Assembly (NCBI GenBank): GCA_947165675.1
Contig: CAMVBJ010000010.1
Location: forward strand, 1-64,000
DNA length: 64,000 bases
Origin: an uncultured Prevotellaceae bacterium
GTDB taxonomy: Bacteria; Bacteroidota; Bacteroidia; Bacteroidales; Muribaculaceae
Direction of reading: 5' to 3'
The position numbers and the translations under genes are program-made. The notes beneath the pieces are model-generated. The model had not been told where the DNA came from. It made no database searches and worked only from the letters and a program-made list of their open reading frames with translations. Below, in pieces: positions 4,698 through 28,559 of the stretch; position 1 is the stretch's first letter, and every line of letters begins with the position of its first letter.

Positions 4698-5597
4698 ATG
4701 AAAAAGACTTTACTTATCACAATGCTCGCCCTGCTGGGCATGTCCCAGATGTTGGCGCAGGAATATGAGTACATTCCGTTCGTTCGCGAGGGCGTTAAGT
4801 GGGTTTGTACTATTTCCAGATTTGATGAAGTTTCAGAAATGAATGTGAGACAGAGCTTTAATCTCGAGTTTAAAGGTGATACTATCATCAATGGAAGAAC
4901 CTATAAAGCGATGCACAAGTATAGTGGAGTTGAAGTAAATTGTGATAATGACACTGTGCCTGTCTATATGCGTGAAGAAAACAAAATTGTTTACGCAATT
5001 ACTCCTGATGGTGTGACTTATCCTGGTTGCCCTGTCGGCCTGTATTATAGCTATTCCGATATTTATGATGGGGAAGAATTTGAGTTCTGTGACTTCAATG
5101 ATCCGGCTGGGTTCTGGGCCAATGAAATCAATGAATCGATAGGTGATAATCTCTACCAACTGGTTAGTATCGATACCATTCAGGTTGGAATGCATCAGGC
5201 TAAACGCTATAATAGTATGGTAGGTGCTGATGAAACCAATTTTTTCATTATAGATGGTGTTGGCTACGACTCTAATTTTGGATACACATTGTTTCCTTTT
5301 GTTCCTTATTTTTATAGCACTCCAGTGTTTTATGCCTTGAGCCACGTCATTGAGAACGGAGAGATTATCTACAAGGGTAGTCATTTTAATCCTAATGCAA
5401 TTGTACTTCCAGGTGACGTGGATGGCGATGGCGAAATCACCATTGCTGATGCCAACAGCGTGATTGATATCGTCGTCATGGGCGGCAACGCTGGCCACAC
5501 CCGTATTCCCGCTTCCGACAGGAACGGAGACGGTGAAGTCACCATCGCCGACGTGAACGCCATCATCGACATAATCCTCAACGATTTATCATTCTAA
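4698..5597 (+). CDS. Secreted protein with C-terminal dockerin-like dyad
   Basis: A 299-aa protein with a signal peptide (MKKTLLITMLALLGMSQMLAQ, cleavage near residue 20). Residues ~22-230 form an unrecognised beta-rich domain. The last ~65 residues contain two EF-hand-like dockerin repeats (GDVDGDGEITIADANSVIDI and DRNGDGEVTIADVNAIIDII). Such dyads bind calcium and, in cellulosomes, a cohesin partner; no cohesin gene is seen here. The body of the gene is AT-rich in codon choice, while the dockerin segment from about 5400 is clearly GC-richer, suggesting a shuffled module. It is divergent from the TPR regulator, and a family A repeat begins 12 nt after its stop. Confidence 0.75.
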   Translation: MKKTLLITMLALLGMSQMLAQEYEYIPFVREGVKWVCTISRFDEVSEMNVRQSFNLEFKGDTIINGRTYKAMHKYSGVEVNCDNDTVPVYMREENKIVYAITPDGVTYPGCPVGLYYSYSDIYDGEEFEFCDFNDPAGFWANEINESIGDNLYQLVSIDTIQVGMHQAKRYNSMVGADETNFFIIDGVGYDSNFGYTLFPFVPYFYSTPVFYALSHVIENGEIIYKGSHFNPNAIVLPGDVDGDGEITIADANSVIDIVVMGGNAGHTRIPASDRNGDGEVTIADVNAIIDIILNDLSF

Positions 5598-8527: not shown

Positions 8528-9571
8528 CTACAGGTGACTACTCCCAAAACTGTGCACAGCATTAAGAACAGAGGTGTTAATGTGATCTATCTGGCTCATG
8601 TCTATCGAGTTAAGGTAGATCTTGGTCGTCTTGACCGATGTATGCCCCATGCCATAACTGATGAGCTCAATCGGGTGGTTAAGGGTTCTTGCCGCACTGG
8701 CCCAAGAGTGCCGAGCGACATACATGGTCAAGTTACTCTTGATGCCACACCGTTGTGCTATCTTTTTCAACAGCTTGTTCACCTTGTACTGCACGCCACG
8801 GTACTGGTTACGTTCTTTCCCGTTGTCTGAGTGGATAATAGGGAGCAAGTAAGGGGATTTGGGCTCATGATACCGCTCCACGATCTCCTGCATGCAATAC
8901 TCCCACTTGACAGTAATGCTCTGTCCCGTCTTGTGCCGCTTGTAGTGTAAACTTCCAGACTTGATATTAGCTGGCTTCAAGTAAGCCATGTCCACAAACG
9001 ACATTCCACGAGTGTAAAAACTGAACATGAACATGTCGCGCGCGAACAATTCCTCATGGTCAATAATGTCACACTGGCTGATTTTCTTGATGTCATCGAT
9101 AGCCAGTGCGCGCTTGTTGGTCTGCCCTATTCCTGTATATACGTTCTTAAAGGGATGCCTGTCAACAAGCTGGTATCTCTCAATGGCCTTGTTGTAGCAA
9201 GAGCGCAGCACCCTCATGTTAAATGACACTGTGTTTAACGACAAGTCGCGTGATCTGAGGTAATTCTCGAACTGCTCCATGACCTCGGCGGTCACATGAC
9301 TGATGGCAATGTCATGCCCTTGCCGCCATTGCATGAATTGCTTTAAGACACTCGCATGGATTTCGGCGCTACGGATGCGCCGGTTCTCAGATAGCCGCTT
9401 TATCTCTCGGCTGATAAAAGCCCCAAAGTCGATCATTGTTGGGTCAGTTGACGGCATACCTATCTCAGCAATGCCTCTGGAACTAATTGTGTGCCCATTG
9501 ATCGTGACAACAAACTCGTTGCACGAGACATCAACGCCTCTAATCTGTAAATCAAGTACTATTTTTTTCAT
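8528..9571 (-). CDS. Tyrosine site-specific recombinase
   Basis: A 347-aa integrase-family protein. An SAM-like core-binding domain (residues ~45-150) is followed by the catalytic domain, where Arg188 (FYTRGMSF), Lys214 (RHKTG), Arg287 (YVARHSW), His310 (GMGHTSVKTT) and Tyr319 are visible. The usual first His of HxxR is Tyr284, a change I recall as common in Bacteroidota integrases. The N-terminal ~45 residues are short, and no excisionase, relaxase or phage genes lie next to it. It therefore resembles an orphan recombinase or DNA invertase rather than the integrase of a complete element. Nested inverted repeats lie just upstream (9591-9646). Targets are unknown. Confidence 0.85.
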   Translation of the reverse strand: MKKIVLDLQIRGVDVSCNEFVVTINGHTISSRGIAEIGMPSTDPTMIDFGAFISREIKRLSENRRIRSAEIHASVLKQFMQWRQGHDIAISHVTAEVMEQFENYLRSRDLSLNTVSFNMRVLRSCYNKAIERYQLVDRHPFKNVYTGIGQTNKRALAIDDIKKISQCDIIDHEELFARDMFMFSFYTRGMSFVDMAYLKPANIKSGSLHYKRHKTGQSITVKWEYCMQEIVERYHEPKSPYLLPIIHSDNGKERNQYRGVQYKVNKLLKKIAQRCGIKSNLTMYVARHSWASAARTLNHPIELISYGMGHTSVKTTKIYLNSIDMSQIDHINTSVLNAVHSFGSSHL

Positions 9572-14730: not shown

Positions 14731-15075
14731 TTACTCCCGCGTGAGTTCTATAGCAGGGCTACCGGCCTCCATGGTCTGCTTGCTCCGGTAGAGCTTGCCA
14801 TGGCTCATATAGTAGTAAGTGGTGTCGCCATTATACTCGATCGTCACATAGGACGTATCGCTGTGCTCTCCATCATGCCAGCGGGTCTCGTTGATCTTGT
14901 CTTGACCATTAAACTGGATGGTGGCAGTGTGGTCCTCGCGTAACTCAAACTTGTTGCCGAACTCGTCAACATACTTGCCTGTTACCTTGCCATCGTCGGC
15001 GTTCTTGCTTCCGCATGACACCACAGTGGCAGCGAGGCTTGCAATCAATAGTGCGTGAAATAACTTTAAAGCCAT
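14731..15075 (-). CDS. Small lipoprotein of unknown function
   Basis: A 114-aa protein from MALKLFH; the ATG 13 codons upstream is less likely because the signal starts here. The lipobox is VVSC at about residue 21. The mature ~90 residues have short beta-strand-like stretches (GKYVDEFGNKFELREDHTATIQF, YVTIEYNGDTTYYYMSHGKLY), resembling small lipocalin-like or META-type lipoproteins, but no family is assigned. The MITE-like element abuts its 3' end, with the right terminal repeat 12 nt from the stop. It is downstream of the 993-aa lipoprotein gene on the same strand, with a 135-nt gap. Confidence 0.65.
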   Translation of the reverse strand: MALKLFHALLIASLAATVVSCGSKNADDGKVTGKYVDEFGNKFELREDHTATIQFNGQDKINETRWHDGEHSDTSYVTIEYNGDTTYYYMSHGKLYRSKQTMEAGSPAIELTRE

Positions 15076-15210
15076 GATCTTCTCAGTTTTTAGTAAAAAA
15101 TTGGCACCGCACACATCTTAAGAAAAGAGCGACGGTGCCAATCATCAAAGAACTATTGTGCTATTTAATGCTATGAAAAAAACTTTTAGTTCATTTCAAT
15201 GGTTATCACA

Positions 15211-18192
15211 TCAAGGAGCAGGAGTGTTCTTGGTGGACTGAACAAGGATCTCAACGTCCTCGATGGTATAAGTACCCCAACCATAGTTGATGTCAAGATC
15301 AACCTTGATGTAGAAGTCCTCTTCCACGTTGGCGCCGTTGTTCTTGTAGGTCAACCAGCCGAAGCGGTTATTGCCACCGATGGTGCGATTGAAGCCGAAC
15401 TCGATGGTTGAGGGCAGCGGCTTCCAACCAGTGTTACCATCCACCTTCAGGTTGCAGACAGCACTGTTGGTGTAGAACGTGCAGCTGAAGGGACCATAGT
15501 AACCCCAGAACGAGGGATGGTTAGCGAAGTCGCGATCGCGCCAGTCAACAAGGCGGTTCAGGAACTTGTCAATGTTAACATAGGAGTGAGCCTCGCCATA
15601 GTCAACACCATCAATGAAGTAGTCATCGGTCTTGTTATTACCAGTGAGGGTTACAGGACGGATCACCTTAGCAACGAAGTGATCAGCACCACCACGGAAG
15701 TTGAACTTCACCTCATACTTGCCACAAACCAGACCAGAAGCACCAATGAAGACTTCCATGTTGCCATTGTTCAGCAACTCGAGAGCAGTAGCGTCAGTCT
15801 TGTTGTAAGTGAACTTGTTGTAGGTGGGACCATTCAGCAGCCATGCAATCTTGTGGCTACCGTACCACAACTCTGTGCCATTGTTGGCAACAGTGAAGGT
15901 CTTGCCATTGATGGTCTTGTGGGTGTCGCAGAAGAAGTAGCGCATACCAGAGATGGGGAACTCGGTGCCCGTGATCTTGATGAAGCCGTTCTCAGCAACG
16001 AAGAAGGTGTTCAAGTCAACATCAAATACACACTTGGTGTTGTCGGTGGTGTTCTCGGGATCGGGAACATTCACGTTCAGCTTGGTGTAAGAATAGTTGT
16101 CGAACCAGTAGTTCTCAACATACTTACCATTAGCACCATTCACATCGATGGTATAGGTCTTCTTAATATTCTTGATCTTGGCACACAAGATGATATCGAA
16201 GAAGTGAACGTGGTCAGGAGCCCAGAAACGATAGCGGTTGTAAACCGTCTCACCGGCATGTGCCCAGAGGTCATCATTGGAGATCCTCCAGTAAAGAACA
16301 ACGGTGCCTTCCTGTGAGGGATCGCCAACCAAGTCGTTGCTCTGTTCAACGGTACCCAGCTCGAAGTGATCCTTAGTGCGGTTGTCGATGGTGATCGACT
16401 GACCAGTCAGGTTATCAGTGAACGTGCCAGTGCCGGTTACATCCTGACCCTGATCCATGGGATATACGCTCTGGAACTCAAGCCAGCTGTAGTGATAAGG
16501 CTTGAGCACGCTGATGCTGAAGTCCTTGTAGTCATATACGAATTGGCCAGCGTCCTGGTTGCAATTGAATGTGAAGTCTTCACCAGTGAAGATTGCAGCG
16601 AAATTCTGAATGGGTTCAGGAGTGCGAACGATCTTAACCTTGATGTAAGCAACCTTGACAGTCTTGTCACCATCCATCAGGCGGACACGGATAACGGGAG
16701 TGCGGTCGATAGCTGACTCACCATATTTCTCCTTCACCTTCAAGATACCAGTGGTCTCATCGAAGTCAACATACTCGTTCTGCTCAGTCTCGTTGCCACC
16801 AATCTTATAACCGGTCATCAGTTCAAGCTTCCAGGTGAAGCCCAAAGCCTGCAGCGAGGTGGTAGCGTCAATGCAAGTCTCACCGACCTCATGAGCCATC
16901 ACGAAGTCCCAAATGTTCAACTCGCCATTCCACTTGAGCTGGAGGTCGCAAGTCTCACCATTGTTGTCGAGCTTGTGGGTAACAGCATAATCCCGGATAC
17001 CAATGTGGCCGCATGAGTTGTCCTTGCTGTGGAGGATGGTGCGGAAGTGGTAGTCCTCCTTCGAGGCAAAGCGAGCCTTGTCGGCAATGTGGATATCCTT
17101 CAGGTTGCTCTTGATAACGGTGGCGTAGTCCGAAGTCACGTTCTCGCCATCCTCACGGGCAGTCTGCAGAGCGATTACCGAGATGTTGTCACCAGTAGCG
17201 GGTTCGCCATGGACAACAACCTCGACGGTCAGCATACCGTTAGAGAAATCAACAAACTTAGCCTCGGCATTGAAGTCGCTGGAAGCGGGATCCTTCTTGG
17301 GGGCGCGAGTCTTGATGAACTCATCGTTGGCCTTAACGACAAATGTGAGGTTCTTCAGGTCATCCACATTGGCATTGCTGGGATTGACATGATACTTCAC
17401 ATAGGTCTTGCGGCTCTTGTAAGTCTTGGTAGAAGAAGTGGTATACTCCTCAAGACCCTTCTGGGTACCATCCTCACCATCGCCATTCTTGCCGTTGTTC
17501 ATGCGGGTCATGTTCAGTGCATTGTAGCCGAACTGTGCCACGCGGATTGCGGGAACACCGTCAACGTAAACCTCAGGCTGGAACACGAAGCCACGCAGCA
17601 CGTTGCTCAATGCAACGGTGAAGTCAGCATAGCCACTGCTGGTCCTGACGTTGTACAGCTTCAAGTCGCTACCGTCCTTGACTGCCGTGATTTCATTGGT
17701 AGAAGCCATCCACGAAACAGTGGTGTGCTCCTTGAGGGTGCCGTCACCATTGTAGATGTCCCAGCAGCCAGTCTCGGTATTAGGTACGTAATAGATGCCG
17801 TCCTTGCCGTTGGTACCATTGGTGCCGTTGGTGCCGTTCATACCGTTGGCTCCATCCTTGCCGATTGCGTAATAGTTGGTCTTCTCACCATCCTTGTACC
17901 AGTAGCCATCATCACCGATAGTCCATACAGTAGCGTTTGTACCATTGGTGATGGTGTAGGTCGTGCCGTTTGCCATTACGACCTCAATGCCGTTAGCAAC
18001 CTTCCTCACTTCCTTAATGACACTGCCATCGGTTACCAGACTGTTGATCTGGTCAATCGCCTTGGCATTCTTGTCAATCTGCTCCTGCAAGTCCTTGATG
18101 TCGTCATCGTAGTCCTTACAAGAAGTAAACATGCTTGAAATTCCCACACATAGCAGGAATGCCAGCATTGAGCTCAATAAACGTTTACTCAT
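15211..18192 (-). CDS. Large surface lipoprotein (DUF4988-like N-terminus, short collagen-like run)
   Basis: A 993-aa protein. The signal and lipobox (FTSC) place the lipidated Cys at residue 25. An acidic stalk, KDYDDDIKDLQEQIDKN, and a coiled-coil-like helix follow, as in the N-terminal domain I associate with DUF4988. Residues ~113-131 are a short Gly-x-y run (GANGMNGTNGTNGTNGKDG). The remaining ~850 residues look like several beta-sandwich domains; none was recognised with certainty. It is likely an outer-membrane surface lipoprotein. Its promoter (18292-18323) lies just inside one arm of a 26-bp inverted repeat, so expression could be phase-variable. Confidence 0.75.
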   Translation of the reverse strand: MSKRLLSSMLAFLLCVGISSMFTSCKDYDDDIKDLQEQIDKNAKAIDQINSLVTDGSVIKEVRKVANGIEVVMANGTTYTITNGTNATVWTIGDDGYWYKDGEKTNYYAIGKDGANGMNGTNGTNGTNGKDGIYYVPNTETGCWDIYNGDGTLKEHTTVSWMASTNEITAVKDGSDLKLYNVRTSSGYADFTVALSNVLRGFVFQPEVYVDGVPAIRVAQFGYNALNMTRMNNGKNGDGEDGTQKGLEEYTTSSTKTYKSRKTYVKYHVNPSNANVDDLKNLTFVVKANDEFIKTRAPKKDPASSDFNAEAKFVDFSNGMLTVEVVVHGEPATGDNISVIALQTAREDGENVTSDYATVIKSNLKDIHIADKARFASKEDYHFRTILHSKDNSCGHIGIRDYAVTHKLDNNGETCDLQLKWNGELNIWDFVMAHEVGETCIDATTSLQALGFTWKLELMTGYKIGGNETEQNEYVDFDETTGILKVKEKYGESAIDRTPVIRVRLMDGDKTVKVAYIKVKIVRTPEPIQNFAAIFTGEDFTFNCNQDAGQFVYDYKDFSISVLKPYHYSWLEFQSVYPMDQGQDVTGTGTFTDNLTGQSITIDNRTKDHFELGTVEQSNDLVGDPSQEGTVVLYWRISNDDLWAHAGETVYNRYRFWAPDHVHFFDIILCAKIKNIKKTYTIDVNGANGKYVENYWFDNYSYTKLNVNVPDPENTTDNTKCVFDVDLNTFFVAENGFIKITGTEFPISGMRYFFCDTHKTINGKTFTVANNGTELWYGSHKIAWLLNGPTYNKFTYNKTDATALELLNNGNMEVFIGASGLVCGKYEVKFNFRGGADHFVAKVIRPVTLTGNNKTDDYFIDGVDYGEAHSYVNIDKFLNRLVDWRDRDFANHPSFWGYYGPFSCTFYTNSAVCNLKVDGNTGWKPLPSTIEFGFNRTIGGNNRFGWLTYKNNGANVEEDFYIKVDLDINYGWGTYTIEDVEILVQSTKNTPAP

Positions 18193-18258: not shown

Positions 18259-18284
18259 TGTAACTCTTGCGGAGAGTTACAATT
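18259..18284. repeat. 26-bp inverted repeat, left arm
   Basis: It begins TGTAACTC, has centre TTGCGGA and ends GAGTTACAATT. It is an exact inverted copy of 18963-18988, and each arm is itself a hairpin (GTAACTC / GAGTTAC, 7-nt loop). It lies directly downstream of the predicted transcription start of the 993-aa lipoprotein gene, so the mRNA would begin with this stem-loop. Confidence 0.75.
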
Positions 18285-18291
18285 CAGCGTG

Positions 18292-18323
18292 CAAATTTAC
18301 GCATAACTTTTTTAACATGCAAA
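18292..18323 (-). promoter_or_regulatory. Promoter of the 993-aa lipoprotein gene, inside the inverted repeat
   Basis: On the minus strand TTTG (18323-18320), 20 nt, TAAATTTG (18299-18292): a near-perfect Bacteroidota promoter pointing to the gene starting at 18192. The transcript would start at about 18286, at the edge of the repeat arm. Confidence 0.75.
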
Positions 18324-18392
18324 TTTAAAGATTAGATTTTGTTCACATTTTATTCTATACCGTGTGAAAACAGCAAGTTTTAATTACACGGA

Positions 18393-18839
18393 TTATTGTT
18401 TTTTCTTGTTTCGGGTATTTGCCGGCTCTTTTAGAACATTACCATGAAGGTAGAACCAGACGTAATCGTGAGGGACAGTATTTGTCTTTAACAAGACCGA
18501 TTGCTTGAACATTCCAACATGAGACCGAATGTAATAGGTCATTTTGATCTCAACAGAATCTCCTGGATAAACAATATCCCGATCATAAGACACACAGACA
18601 CAGGGACATGACGTTGTGCTTGAAACAATGATCAACGGTACATCCCCTGTGCTTTTCAGCCAGAAGGAAGACGAGACGGAATCAGTATCACTAAAGACAT
18701 CGCCAACGTCACACAGGTATTGCCCTTGAATCTCAAATCTCGCGCAGGAATCCGTAGAATGATCACCATCCGCTGCCATGGCATTGAGCCAGTAGCAAAG
18801 AATAAAAGCCAATAAACTACAACAGTATTTCATGCTCAT
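18393..18839 (-). CDS. DUF1573 family secreted protein
   Basis: A 148-aa protein with a signal peptide (MSMKYCCSLLAFILCYWLNAMAA). The remainder matches the DUF1573 pattern: GDVFSDTDSVSSSFWLKSTGDVPLII, then a Cys-rich TTSCPCVCVSYDRDIVYPGDS, then IKMTYYIRSHVGMFKQSVLLKTN and a final strand pair (HGNV). DUF1573 is an immunoglobulin-like domain common in secreted Bacteroidota proteins; its molecular role is not established. The gene is enclosed by the 26-bp inverted repeats at 18259 and 18963, so it would change strand if that segment inverted. No good TAnnTTTG box was found just upstream. Confidence 0.75.
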   Translation of the reverse strand: MSMKYCCSLLAFILCYWLNAMAADGDHSTDSCARFEIQGQYLCDVGDVFSDTDSVSSSFWLKSTGDVPLIIVSSTTSCPCVCVSYDRDIVYPGDSVEIKMTYYIRSHVGMFKQSVLLKTNTVPHDYVWFYLHGNVLKEPANTRNKKKQ

Positions 18840-18962
18840 GATGTTTTCATTATTTCATTATTTGATAATTGAATAGTGATAAACTTGTATATATATACTG
18901 AATTTATATTAGGCTATTCTTGGAAATAACGTGTTAAGTGATTTATAATCAAGTTATTTGTA

Positions 18963-18988
18963 AATTGTAACTCTCCGCAAGAGTTACA
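18963..18988. repeat. 26-bp inverted repeat, right arm
   Basis: An exact inverted copy of 18259-18284. On the plus strand its hairpin is followed by a run of eight T, so it could also act as a plus-strand terminator, although no plus-strand gene in the present orientation needs one. Confidence 0.75.
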
Positions 18989-19130
18989 TTTTTTTTGCTT
19001 TTAGCTGTATCTATTTTCATTTTTAGCACGGTCCCTGGCACGCCAAACCATGGACGGGATTGCTGTCGCGAGTTGGAGCAAATAGCCCGATGATCCACCC
19101 CATCTCGCCACACAGTCATTTTTCTTTATT

Positions 19131-19309
19131 TAAGTTTCGCAAGTTGTTAACTTGCTCACTGGTTAATGGATAATGGTTAATGGTTAATGAAAAATACCTT
19201 CCATTTTCAGGAAACATTTATAAATCACATTTTGGCAAATTCTTTAACCATTAACCTTTATCCTTTATCCTCAAGTTTTTAAAGTGGCGCAGCTGCTTTA
19301 GAAACTTGA
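19131..19309 (-). repeat. Fold-back repeat, family B (copy 2, inverted)
   Basis: Reverse-oriented, diverged copy of 14295-14477, with the same two end hairpins (GCAAGTTGTTAACTTGC-type at 19138-19155 and AAGTTTTTAAAGT/GCTTTAGAAACTT at 19273-19307). It ends 6 nt from the stop codon of the SUMF1-type gene. Apart from the repeat arm, the gap 18840-19130 contains nothing recognisable. Confidence 0.7.
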
Positions 19310-19315
19310 ATTTCT

Positions 19316-20884
19316 TTACAATGCAAGTCGCAATCCCACAGAATAGTGTTTAAATTCGGGCCTATTGTTATATCGATAGGAGCAACGGCAGAAACGCGCT
19401 TCGACATTCCACGAGCCACCACGTATCACTCGATAGCTTCCAGCGCTTGGTCCTTTGGGATCCACATCAATATATCCTTGATAACTGTCCCTGGGCGACA
19501 AGAGCGCAATCCTGTTGGCCCTATAGCTTGCCTCGGTTGTATCAGGTACCGACTTTTGGGCATACACTGTGATCGATTGTTCAGGGACGCCCGCACTGCT
19601 GATACCGATGACTCCCGAAACAGGTTCTGTGCTTGTACCTAAATACTTGACAGTCAACCACGCGTTCTCTACCACGCCATCAACAGGAGTGATCACATCA
19701 GGTGTCACACTGAAATCCTCACGGTTGCAGGTAACCCTGACGTCATCGATCAGGTTATGCCCCATCAGCTCAATTGTTCCAGTAATGACGGTATCCTGGC
19801 CAACTACTTGTTCCTGTAGCCACAAGGGGTTGTCTGCATAGACACTCAACTCGGGATTGTGGTATCGGACATTGACAATCGCATCGTCAGCATTTCTACT
19901 GCTCACCGTGATGGTAGCACTGGCAGGGCTCAATCTCGGGCCTGTATAAGTCACCGTGACACTGATATCACGATTTTCAGCATCACTCACCCTGATAGAT
20001 TCGGGGCTGACGCTGAATCCCTCTTCCTCAATAGTGATGTGAATGTCATCGGACAGATGATACCCCCTGACGGTGAACACACCCGTCGTTGAAGTGCCGC
20101 CTGCAGGGAGGTCTTCCAGATATAGGGTCCTGGGATTAATATACAGCATCGGACCTGGATAGCCGCTATACCAATCGTTGCACCACTCAAACACGTTACC
20201 ACTCATGTCATACAGACCCAACTCATTGGGAGCCAGTTGTGCAACAGGCTGGGTAGTGTAGCTCGTGTTGTTGCCTCCTTTTTCAAATCCCCACCAACCG
20301 ACTTCGTCAATGTAATTACTACCGGCATATTTGTAGCCACGGCTCTTGTTGCCGCCTCGGGCGGCAAATTCCCATTCAGCCTCGGTCGGAAGACGGAATT
20401 GCTGTCCCGTCAAGGCGTTTAAACGGTTGATGAACTCTTTACAGTCTTCCCACGAGACACGTTCAACGGGTTTACTACTGCCCGAGAAAGAGCTTGGATT
20501 ACTGTTCATGACAGCATCCCACAATTCCTGGGTCACTTCAGTCTGGCCGATGTAGTAGTCTGAGAGTTGAACCATGCGTGCAGGACGCTCATCCGGCCTG
20601 GCCTCGGTGTCATCATCGGTGGCACCCATCATATAGGTCCCGCCATCGACCCGGACCATTGTAAAGGATACACCATTGACAGTAAATGTCTTATTCTGCT
20701 GTGGAGGTGTCACTGGTTTGCCTAAGATGACATCGATCACGGCGTTGATGTCACTCAGGGTCACCTCGCCATCCCGATTGACATCGGCAAACAGATAGTC
20801 GTCAGCTTGACTGTACATGGGTGTCAGCAGCATTAAAGCCATTGGCAATAACGCTACAAGCGGTTTTAATAATGATTTCTTCAT
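19316..20884 (-). CDS. SUMF1/FGE-fold protein with N-terminal dockerin repeat and inserted Ig-like domains
   Basis: A 522-aa protein from MKKSLLKP. The ATG at 20950 is excluded because the -7 box (20955-20948) overlaps it. A signal peptide (1-27) is followed by one dockerin-like repeat (ADVNRDGEVTLSDINAVIDVIL, 33-54). Then comes a SUMF1 fold: FTMVRVDGGTYMMGAT, YYIGQTEVTQELWDAVM, PVERVSWEDCKEFINRLN, FRLPTEAEWEFAARGG and LYDMSGNVFEWCNDWY (to ~242). Residues ~243-468 are two similar beta-sandwich repeats, after which the fold resumes (DPKGPSAGSYRVIRGGSWN to GLRLAL). The C-terminal Cys residues (CRC) do not match the Cys pair of true formylglycine-generating enzymes, so that activity is doubtful. 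Probably a secreted binding protein. Confidence 0.8.
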   Translation of the reverse strand: MKKSLLKPLVALLPMALMLLTPMYSQADDYLFADVNRDGEVTLSDINAVIDVILGKPVTPPQQNKTFTVNGVSFTMVRVDGGTYMMGATDDDTEARPDERPARMVQLSDYYIGQTEVTQELWDAVMNSNPSSFSGSSKPVERVSWEDCKEFINRLNALTGQQFRLPTEAEWEFAARGGNKSRGYKYAGSNYIDEVGWWGFEKGGNNTSYTTQPVAQLAPNELGLYDMSGNVFEWCNDWYSGYPGPMLYINPRTLYLEDLPAGGTSTTGVFTVRGYHLSDDIHITIEEEGFSVSPESIRVSDAENRDISVTVTYTGPRLSPASATITVSSRNADDAIVNVRYHNPELSVYADNPLWLQEQVVGQDTVITGTIELMGHNLIDDVRVTCNREDFSVTPDVITPVDGVVENAWLTVKYLGTSTEPVSGVIGISSAGVPEQSITVYAQKSVPDTTEASYRANRIALLSPRDSYQGYIDVDPKGPSAGSYRVIRGGSWNVEARFCRCSYRYNNRPEFKHYSVGLRLAL

Positions 20885-20947
20885 ACTTAATGAATACTTG
20901 GATAATAGTTTGATACAGTTCAAGCACAATAGTTCCTCATGGTGGCG

Positions 20948-20981
20948 CAAAGGTACACATTTTAATTACACAGGTGGCAAA
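20948..20981 (-). promoter_or_regulatory. Promoter of the SUMF1-type gene
   Basis: On the minus strand TTTG (20981-20978), 22 nt, TACCTTTG (20955-20948). It decides the start: translation must begin downstream, at 20884. Confidence 0.6.
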
Positions 20982-25922: not shown

Positions 25923-28559
25923 TTGCGTACTGCACTACTGCTATTTGCCATGCTCTCTTCGATCACAGCCTCCGCCTATGACTTTGAACAGGACGGCATC
26001 TTCTATAACGTGAACAAGGACGGCACAACCGTGGCGGTTACCTATGAAACAACAAATTACAATTCCTACAGCGGAGAAGTCACCATCCCCAATTTCGTCA
26101 CCCACGACGGCATCACCTATACAGTCACCTCCATCGATCAGGATGCTTTTAGAATTTGTAGCGAACTGACGAGTGTTGTAATACCCGACTCTGTAAAAAC
26201 AATCGGAAGACAGGCTTTCAATAATTGCACTGAGCTAAATCACGTCACCATCGGTCAGTCTGTCACCAGTTTAAGAAAGCAGTTTTATTATGCCTTTGAA
26301 GGCTGTGATAATATCACATCACTGACATGGAATGCACGCAATTGTACTGACAATGGTAAAATGGGCACTTCAAATATCGAACATGTGACACTCGGTCCCC
26401 AAGTGGAAGTACTCCCTGCAGATTTTGTTAAGGGCTCAAAAATTGATAACGTCATTATTCCCAACTCGGTCAATTCTATCGGCAAAAGTTCATTCGAGGG
26501 ATGCAAAGGATTAACAAGTCTGATTATTCCCAATTCCGTTAAAACTATAGGTAATAATGCATTCTCGGGATGCACCGGGTTGACGGACGTCATCTTGGGA
26601 AATTCGGTCACAACAATATATAGTGGCGCATTTGCTTACTGCTCAAGGCTGACACACATTGACATTCCCAATTCAGTCACCAGTTTATCTGGATTCGAAT
26701 ATTGCACTGGACTGACAAACGTCATTATCCCCAATTCGGTAGTCGATTTGGGAGGATTCACTGGATGCACAGGATTGACACACATTGACATTCCCAATTC
26801 GGTTATCACTATAGGTAGAAATGCATTCTCTGGTTGCACGGGGTTGACAAACATTGACATTCCCGACTCGGTCACGAAGATTTATTACAACGCTTTCAGT
26901 GGTTGCACGGGGCTCACAGAGGTCACAATCGGCAACTCGGTAGCTTCTATTCTCAAAGAGGCTTTTTATGGTTGTGAGAATTTAGTCAAAGTCAATATTT
27001 CAAGCATTGAGGCATGGTGTAATATTCTATTTGACATTTCAGATACGGATGATTTTCAACCAGGAACTTCTAACCCACTATATTATGCACATCACCTCTA
27101 TTTGAACAACCAAGAAATAACAGATCTTGTTATTCCGAGTACCATTACTGCTATCAATAACTATGCTTTCTATGGTTGCTACAGTATTACAACTGCCACC
27201 ATCCCCAACTCGGTTACATCGATTGGTAACTATGCATTCTCGTTCTGCCCTGGGTTAACAGACATCGACCTCTCCAATGCTCTCACCAGAATTGGAGATG
27301 AGGCTTTTTATGGTTGTGAACAGCTTACAAGTATTAACATATCCGATAAGATCGCCTCTATAGGCTATAGAGCATTTGGTTATTGCGTTAGCCTAAAAAG
27401 TATAACAGTGGATAATGGCAACACGGTATATGACTCACGCGACAATTGCAATGCTATTATCGAGACCGCAAGCAATAAATTAATCTATGGATGCCAGAAT
27501 ACGATGATTCCAAGGACGGTTACCAGCATCGCACCCAATGCCTTCTACGGCTGTGTACATATGAACAGCCTTTTTATTCCTAATACAGTAACCTCCATCG
27601 GTAAAGAAAGGATAAACGCTACCACTTACATTTATTATAACCCGTTCGATTATTGTCTTGATTTGAATTCAATCATAGTAGAAGAAGGAAACCCCGTCTA
27701 TGATTCACGCGACAACTGCAATGCCATCATCGAGTCCGCTTCCAACACACTGATTGCAGGATGTAAAAACACCACAATCCCTAACTCAATTACCACCATC
27801 GGGAAAGAGGCCTTTTGGGGTTGCCGGACTTTGTCAAGCATAGATATTCCCAACTCGGTCACGAAGATTGACAATGCCGCTTTCGGCGTCTGCACAGGTT
27901 TGACAAAGCTGACCCTCCCCAATTCTGTCACCACTATAGGCGAAAACGCATTCTATGGTTGTGTGGGACTGACAGATTTGTCGTTACCGAACTCCCTTAC
28001 CACTATCGGCTTTTCTGCATTTGACTACTGCACCAGCTTAACAAGTGTCACTATTCCAAATTCGGTAATCTCACAATACAATGGCAGTATGGCTGATGGT
28101 TGGTTCATGCATTGCACAGGTTTGACGAGCGTCACCATCGGAAGCGGCATCGAATATATGGGAGTTTTGTTTTGGGAATGTCCGAATATCACCAGTGTTA
28201 CCTGCCTGGCAACCACTCCCCCTTTATGGTGCGTTTTTCAGGTGGCTCACACTCATGAATATTTGTACAACTTCAACAATGAGGTTTATGGGCAAGCTAC
28301 ACTTTATGTGCCAGCCGAGTCTCTTGAAGCATACCAGAACGCCGAATACTGGAGGAACTTTCAGGACATTCGACCTATAAAAGATAGTATTCAAGGTGAT
28401 GTGAACGGCGACGGCGAGGTGAATATTGCCGACATCAACAGCGTGGTCAATGCCATCCTGAGTGGTGACAATGACATGGCATCGGATGTGAACGGTGACG
28501 GTGAAATCGGCATCGCCGACATCAATGCAATCGTCCAGACCATCCTCGGCTCAAACTAA
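25923..28559 (+). CDS. BspA-type leucine-rich repeat surface protein with C-terminal dockerin; signal peptide possibly frameshifted
   Basis: An 878-aa frame. Residues ~75-790 are BspA/LRR_5-type repeats of ~23 residues with the pattern IPNSVTTIGNNAFSGCTGL, interrupted by two related segments containing VYDSRDNCNAII. The last ~60 residues are a dockerin dyad (GDVNGDGEVNIADINSVVNAIL, DVNGDGEIGIADINAIVQTIL). The only in-frame start near the signal is TTG at 25923. An ATG at 25900 gives MKIRLLSL in another frame, and losing or gaining one base in the T-rich stretch at 25916-25924 would join it to RTALLLFAMLSSITASA as a perfect signal peptide. So either TTG is used or this is a one-base deletion. 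LRR proteins of this kind mediate adhesion or glycan binding at the surface. Confidence 0.8.
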   Translation: MRTALLLFAMLSSITASAYDFEQDGIFYNVNKDGTTVAVTYETTNYNSYSGEVTIPNFVTHDGITYTVTSIDQDAFRICSELTSVVIPDSVKTIGRQAFNNCTELNHVTIGQSVTSLRKQFYYAFEGCDNITSLTWNARNCTDNGKMGTSNIEHVTLGPQVEVLPADFVKGSKIDNVIIPNSVNSIGKSSFEGCKGLTSLIIPNSVKTIGNNAFSGCTGLTDVILGNSVTTIYSGAFAYCSRLTHIDIPNSVTSLSGFEYCTGLTNVIIPNSVVDLGGFTGCTGLTHIDIPNSVITIGRNAFSGCTGLTNIDIPDSVTKIYYNAFSGCTGLTEVTIGNSVASILKEAFYGCENLVKVNISSIEAWCNILFDISDTDDFQPGTSNPLYYAHHLYLNNQEITDLVIPSTITAINNYAFYGCYSITTATIPNSVTSIGNYAFSFCPGLTDIDLSNALTRIGDEAFYGCEQLTSINISDKIASIGYRAFGYCVSLKSITVDNGNTVYDSRDNCNAIIETASNKLIYGCQNTMIPRTVTSIAPNAFYGCVHMNSLFIPNTVTSIGKERINATTYIYYNPFDYCLDLNSIIVEEGNPVYDSRDNCNAIIESASNTLIAGCKNTTIPNSITTIGKEAFWGCRTLSSIDIPNSVTKIDNAAFGVCTGLTKLTLPNSVTTIGENAFYGCVGLTDLSLPNSLTTIGFSAFDYCTSLTSVTIPNSVISQYNGSMADGWFMHCTGLTSVTIGSGIEYMGVLFWECPNITSVTCLATTPPLWCVFQVAHTHEYLYNFNNEVYGQATLYVPAESLEAYQNAEYWRNFQDIRPIKDSIQGDVNGDGEVNIADINSVVNAILSGDNDMASDVNGDGEIGIADINAIVQTILGSN

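Follow-up and report, generated by a model that had tools for sequence, protein, structure and literature searches.

The window is a stretch of 64,000 nucleotides from a contig of an uncultured Prevotellaceae bacterium. In it, a gene for a 993-residue surface lipoprotein lies behind a pair of inverted repeats, which raises the question of whether the repeats bound a DNA segment that inverts and so switches this gene or whether they are hairpins of the transcripts. The initial annotation had favoured a phase-variable segment, with a near-consensus promoter just inside the left arm pointing outward, and had named a tyrosine recombinase encoded at 8528 as a possible invertase. A 5' stem-loop plus a terminator had been kept as the alternative, since each arm is itself a hairpin. 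The features of the locus are the following.

8528 to 9571, minus strand: tyrosine recombinase of 347 amino acids with the domains PF13102 and PF00589, likely the invertase
14731 to 15114, minus strand: small lipoprotein-like open reading frame downstream of the switched gene
15211 to 18192, minus strand: surface lipoprotein of 993 amino acids, the gene that would be switched, with CKDYDDDI at the N-terminus and a DUF4988-like N-terminus at the family cut-off
18259 to 18284: lipoprotein-side inverted-repeat arm; the predicted recombination site proper is the 23-nucleotide TGTAACTC-N7-GAGTTACA at 18259-18281
18285 to 18962: predicted invertible segment between the arms, 678 nucleotides, with both orientations among relatives
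18292 to 18323, minus strand: predicted sigma-ABfr type Bacteroidales promoter, TTTG-N20-TAAATTTG, directed outward from the segment and toward the lipoprotein gene (ON)
18393 to 18839, minus strand: passenger gene for a 148-amino-acid DUF1573 (Ig-like) protein, probably secreted, PF07610 with E 3.7e-16, in the direction of the promoter
18963 to 18988: far inverted-repeat arm, with its predicted recombination site proper at 18966-18988
18989 to 18996, plus strand: run of eight T outside the far arm; the arm hairpin and this run resemble a terminator that OFF transcripts leaving the segment would meet

The two arms of 26 nucleotides each are 100% complementary and 678 nucleotides apart, as had been described, and the coordinates of the lipoprotein and recombinase reading frames also proved right when they were checked. 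The 21-nucleotide core of the arms was found in 2 places only in the window at up to 3 mismatches, and in none of 100 shuffled sequences. In the genome (3,124,763 bases searched) the core likewise has 2 copies only. This rules out a genome-wide repeat or REP-like element, and the repeat does not recur at transcript ends across the genome, as it might if it were a common terminator or leader hairpin. Rfam at the gathering threshold returned three tRNAs only for the 64-kb window and no family for the arms. Each arm is internally a dyad. In the leader of the lipoprotein mRNA the left arm forms a hairpin of 10 pairs, and 10 of 200 shuffled sequences folded equally well; the fold is not extreme.

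On the minus strand the promoter comes first, then the left arm and then the lipoprotein gene. The promoter has TTTG at 18323-18320, followed by 20 nucleotides and by TAAATTTG at 18299-18292. It agrees with the sigma-ABfr consensus as this is set out in PMC7366714, with TTTG around −33 and TAnnTTTG at −7, which bears out the outward promoter of the initial annotation. Just past the far arm, at 19161-19270, near-repeats of the TTAATGG type make up imperfect inverted repeats. Three otherwise different predicted secreted proteins of the window (4698-5597, 19316-20950 and 25923-28559) have DxNGDGE repeats near one end, which we take to be dockerin-like, and one of the three is an FGE-sulfatase-type protein adjoining the element.

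The core was searched in 101 genomes of the genus with up to 2 mismatches and matched in 11 of them. Exactly one copy per strand, 585-1139 bases from start to start, was present in 8 genomes including that of the window. When 9-20 kb were read around each match, G018 and G064 proved to contain a second arm too, somewhat decayed and with 3 mismatches. The match in G035 is a single copy inside a coding frame; it was judged to be due to chance and left out of the counts. The locus is therefore present in 10 of 101 genomes, with inner segments of 564-1118 nucleotides; in each of the ten, the next gene downstream of the element is related to that of the lipoprotein. Among the genus genomes, these ten gave a match to the N-terminus of the lipoprotein, and G005 gave a weak one. 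The sister genome G085 has a further relative of the N-terminal region, with 58% identity, on contig C8:32988-33497 (L091), away from the switch.

Each species is represented by one genome, and the nine relatives are uncultured or metagenome assemblies. For five of the nine the stated source is sheep, the rumen of goats, the abomasum of roe deer or the omasum of water deer; three are 'RUG' isolates, presumably rumen uncultured genomes, and one states no source. Since the ten genomes are related to one another, a gene direction that they share inside the segment is one inherited fact and not ten independent ones. A family-wide scan of 397 genomes with GTAACTC-N7-GAGTTAC gave a match in 16, the ten genus genomes and six others. 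The single matches in G129, G210, G256 (L061), G357 and G402 were taken as chance because a reversed control pattern matched in 8 genomes. In G212, which belongs to another genus of the family, a pair of these sites lies about 165 bp apart (L064 1498-1688), with spacers that differ in one letter. A TAATTTTG element is located about 10 nucleotides inside one of its arms and points outward to a large open reading frame, so that L064 may be another inverton, of ordinary size, that uses this half-site.

The direction of the promoter was then compared between the ten loci. An outward −7 element near one arm is present in all of them; its end lies 10-11 nucleotides from the arm core in nine and 19 nucleotides from it in G081. 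A placed promoter, with the −7 element 8-12 nucleotides from the arm and TTG or TTTG 18-22 nucleotides upstream of it, was found in 9 of the 10 segments compared to 2 of 5000 dinucleotide-shuffled segments, and the −7 element by itself occurred at this distance in 21 of 5000. Additional TAnnTTTG elements lie deeper inside the segment in all ten loci, so other transcription starts are possible. The promoter points toward the lipoprotein gene in G000, G017, G048, G064 and G081 and away from it in G018, G021, G036, G085 and G089. With five genomes in each orientation, the relatives speak for the phase-variable segment that had been suspected from the window. The DUF1573 gene follows the same split: in the nine relatives it is on the strand of the lipoprotein gene in 4 and on the opposite strand in 5, and in all ten genomes it has a common direction with the promoter.

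The presence of a DUF1573 gene inside the segment, already noted for the window, extends to all ten loci (PF07610 above the cut-off). The ten proteins have a Cys-x-Cys pair in common and few other shared residues. Codon comparison gave dN 0.16 and dS 0.99 for G048/G089, and for G000/G085 dN was 0.34 and dS 2.9, close to saturation; two of three wider pairs gave no dS. With dN below dS, the protein appears to be kept. The signal peptide was judged by eye and the N-terminal helix was taken from the structure model, which has a mean pLDDT of 86.7 and shows this helix followed by an Ig-like fold. The fold matches were weak and mixed (Ig, ASH and PapD-like; the best was 2qsv with E 2.5e-5) and include central-apparatus domains and two pilus chaperones. 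DUF1573 and phase variation were not found together in the open-licence literature that was searched.

A real switch might have as its main purpose to move the DUF1573 gene between two transcriptional neighbourhoods, with the lipoprotein being secondary. The gene is indeed in every segment and looks selected, and in the window the FGE-type gene past the far arm points into it in the present orientation. However, the sole consistently placed promoter leaves the segment, either toward the lipoprotein gene or away from it, and the gene beyond the far arm differs between the genomes whereas the lipoprotein is found in all ten. In addition, no DUF1573 gene was noticed in the Bacteroides and Mediterranea segments listed, of which three have a recombinase gene inside and two have no gene. 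We therefore regard a switch made for DUF1573 as unlikely and return to one that serves the lipoprotein.

The reversal of the segment is best seen in the closest pair, G048 and G089. Their segments are 74% identical when one is reversed and 48% identical as found, with 43-49% for shuffled sequences, and the outer flanks of 60 nucleotides are collinear, with 82% identity on the lipoprotein side and 69% on the far side. For G000/G085 the segment is 59% identical reversed versus 49% as found, and the flanks are 75% and 49% identical. The DNA is too diverged to tell in G017/G036 (45% versus 44%) and in G048/G081, which are both ON (45% either way), and the test is clear for G048/G089 only.

When the orientations were placed on the tree of the lipoprotein, in which 6 of 7 inner branches are well supported and the G017 protein is truncated where its contig stops, at least 5 changes were needed. 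The sister pairs G000/G085, G048/G089 and G017/G036 are each split. These changes are counted between species and are not events within a strain. The tree of the recombinase is poorly resolved and gives 5 changes, 3 of which are forced by supported branches. The comparison of related genomes that the initial annotation had called for thus places both orientations among the relatives, with the breakpoints in or at the 23-nucleotide sites.

The sites themselves were analysed by comparing the two arms within each genome. Their identity spans 23 positions and breaks at two of them, in G018 and G064 only. On the outer side the agreement falls straight down to 2 of 10 at the next position, and on the inner side it is 6, 8 and 3 of 10 over three positions. 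The half-sites are perfect in 8 of 10 genomes. One arm has a degenerate half-site in G018 and in G064, so the switches of these two may be slowed or locked. The N7 spacer has six forms across the ten genomes and is the same in both arms in every one of them, and 1 of 100,000 re-pairings was as good. For strand exchange, a tyrosine recombinase requires its two inverted sites to have matching spacers, whereas neither a leader hairpin nor a terminator depends on such a match. The hairpin nature of the arms, earlier a ground for doubt, is therefore how the sites are expected to look. The sites are palindromic with the half-site GTAACTC...GAGTTAC, in place of the palindromic GTTAC-GTAAC that PMC12118408 gives for the repeats of the BT1927 type, and we class the predicted site as a variant outside this class.

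The 8528-9571 protein aligns with solved tyrosine recombinases over its C-terminal region. In an alignment of 12 recombinases, consisting of ten genus proteins and those of B. timonensis and B. faecis, the residues K214, R287, H310 and Y319, which we assume to be the catalytic positions, are invariant. The TRG motif reads THG in G036 and G064, which may point to an uncommon active site in this subfamily. Relatives with E 1e-30 or better were found in the ten locus genomes and in G003, G034, G040 and G099. The gene is on the contig of the element in 8 of the 10 genomes and on another contig in G017 and G036. In the window genome it is about 8.7 kb from the nearer arm, and in two genomes it is at the far arm, where the frame ends a few bases from the arm in G021 and inside the arm in G064. 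Neither a site pair nor the lipoprotein was detected in G003, G034, G040 and G099, and a scan of four short loci (L079, L074, L078 and L077, respectively) gave no site pair near the recombinase gene. The copy in G034 (L074) has an in-frame TAG. Across the genus comparison, the predicted sites and the recombinase co-occur. The earlier suggestion of an invertase at 8528 is strengthened by its relatives in all ten genomes and by their place at the far arm in two, and the protein is the best candidate for this predicted role.

The orientations could also go back to old and rare inversions, with several flips over the divergence of the species that are now fixed in each of them and with no working switch. 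One genome per species was compared, and G018 and G064 have one imperfect half-site each, as would fit such a history. Yet the at least five flips among ten species show no clustering by kinship, the half-sites are perfect in eight genomes and the spacers matched in ten, and the recombinase is retained with its invariant K, R, H and Y residues. We consider fixed inversions to be quite improbable, and a working switch remains our reading of the locus.

That the arms are RNA hairpins alone, a 5' leader stem-loop and a terminator with no recombination, is hardly credible: the left arm does fold as a 10-pair leader hairpin and the right arm with its T8 run scores as terminator-like, but sister species have the inner segment in opposite orientations, with collinear outer flanks in the closest pair, the spacer letters are equal in both arms of all ten genomes and vary between genomes, which hairpins do not need, and there is no third copy of the repeat in the genome. 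What stood of this alternative are the hairpin sites and the T-run at the far site, as a second use of the recombination sites and not as a rival to recombination.

This second use was followed in the flanks of the sites. Five or more T among the first 9 outward bases follow the far site in 8 of 10 genomes, the exceptions being G017 and G036, whereas they follow the lipoprotein-side site in none of the 10 (Wilcoxon p 0.006). The flanks with the T-run are outside the segment, and each stays with its side in either orientation. With a hairpin site and then a T-run beyond the segment, transcription from the OFF promoter should meet a terminator. By pattern the right arm plus T8 is terminator-like on the plus strand; 3 such sites were found in 2.2 kb compared to 1.7 in shuffled sequences, and the pattern taken alone is therefore weak. 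Among the related switches outside the genus, a T-run was present in 1 of 5 (L132) in the loci listed (80 of 444). The OFF promoter is likely silenced by the site it reads through, and the ON mRNA would start with the hairpin and have no T-run. More tentatively, we propose as possible, if rather doubtful, the joint view that the site doubles as a terminator, giving a hairpin RNA of about 35 nucleotides in OFF cells, and that the DUF1573 protein is a selected periplasmic Ig-like partner of the lipoprotein with a phase-dependent neighbourhood.

We conclude that the element is very probably an inverton, a site-specific DNA-inversion switch for the phase-variable expression of the large surface lipoprotein. 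In the proposed mechanism, a tyrosine recombinase, most likely 8528-9571, would recombine the two 23-nucleotide dyad sites and the segment would flip. In the ON orientation, the one seen in the window, the promoter at 18292-18323 would fire through the left site into the lipoprotein gene, and the mRNA would begin with the hairpin of the site. In the OFF orientation the same promoter would fire through the far site, and the hairpin with the fixed outer T-run would stop transcription within about 35 nucleotides. The DUF1573 gene rides in the segment, always in the direction of the promoter. We infer from the sequences the identity of the acting recombinase, the activity of the promoter, termination at the far site and continued flipping within a strain.

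The switched lipoprotein scored 29.7 bits against DUF4988, for which the cut-off is 30, and 30.1 in a second run, where 1 of 14 control genomes also scored. Its structure model has a mean pLDDT of 66.7, which is too poor for a fold search, and a PDB sequence search with the lipoprotein gave no match. Small open reading frames similar to that at 14731-15114 were seen by eye after the lipoprotein gene in six relatives (G018, G021, G048, G081, G085 and G089). Outside the genus, a lipoprotein of Bacteroides faecis shows 30% identity to that of the window in an alignment of 562 positions (E 2e-48), with the homology extending over residues 1-527. The repeat pair in front of its gene is of the GTTAC type, measures about 265 nucleotides and has no gene inside.

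Repeats were searched upstream of the lipoprotein relatives for the 80 of 444 matches listed; the search used exact arms, and mismatched arms would escape it. Among these 80 of 444, switch-like pairs were found in nine genus loci and in L132, L133, L152, L162 and L168. Pairs in L108, L124, L153 and L171 and the second pair of L104 were not taken to be switches. In Bacteroides timonensis and Mediterranea, L132 8480-9920, L133 8494-9876 and L162 8430-9877 are repeat-bounded segments of 1.3-1.4 kb that enclose a tyrosine recombinase gene and precede the gene for a related lipoprotein. The −7 element near the arm is directed away from the lipoprotein gene in the B. timonensis and the two Mediterranea loci, and in two B. 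faecis loci a CATCTTTG element replaces it and is likewise directed away. In B. faecis a recombinase gene stops shortly ahead of the far arm; in one of the two loci, L152 (8686-9632), it reads as two adjoining open reading frames. Thirteen other-genus loci are on contigs that start near the start of the lipoprotein gene and were inspected for truncated sites; L156 has a near-complete GTTAC-type site, and nothing clear was seen elsewhere among them.

Invertible promoters are well described in human-gut Bacteroides, and the same logic is now seen in a genus largely from ruminant guts, in a system with evidence that the segment flipped repeatedly during evolution and with a recombinase that is a candidate for a dedicated one. 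A conserved gene other than an invertase in the flipping segment and sites that may end OFF transcription are its design features. Phase-variable surface lipoproteins of such a kind affect phage and complement resistance in Bacteroides, according to the account in PMC12548429, and the switch of the window may by this token bear on rumen phage-host dynamics.

The closest known kind are the invertible promoters of Bacteroides S-layer lipoproteins. The repeats described in PMC12118408 and PMC12548429 are palindromic, of the GTTAC-GTAAC type, and lie close to genes for recombinases or integrases; BT1927, a phase-variable S-layer lipoprotein, is described there as well. As far as BT1927 and its sister loci are portrayed in PMC12548429, PMC12118408 and PMC12578637, they are like the window in that a promoter lies between internally palindromic inverted repeats, that tyrosine recombinase or integrase genes are near and that a surface lipoprotein of about 100 kDa is switched. 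They differ in the half-site, which is GTTAC...GTAAC in the BT1927 type, known here by description, and GTAACTC...GAGTTAC in the window. The genus loci have a segment of 564-1118 nucleotides with DUF1573, whereas that of B. faecis has about 265 nucleotides and no gene. The B. timonensis and Mediterranea loci L132, L133 and L162 share with the window the related lipoprotein, the palindromic arms, a gene inside the segment and an outward −7 element 12-13 nucleotides inside one arm. Unlike in the window, their inside gene encodes the recombinase and the arms are GTTAC...GTAAC, or GTTAT...ATAAC in L162.

For cwpV of Clostridioides difficile, the model presented in PMC2784873 has an intrinsic terminator that is met in the OFF orientation only, as may be the case at the far site of the window locus. 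There, as that report depicts it, the promoter is outside the inverted segment, whereas the window promoter is inside; in the window, moreover, the hairpin is the recombination site itself and the T-run belongs to the fixed outer flank. The restriction subunit S invertons of hCom2 resemble the window in having coding sequence inside or across the invertible region, but as characterised in PMC11892184 they alter the gene that they overlap, while in the window a whole separate gene travels with the promoter. With a half-site of another type and a different gene in its segment, the window element, which would otherwise work like the Bacteroides switches, is classed as a variant of them. What is new here is the passenger gene, the half-site and the predicted double use of the site together with a terminator.
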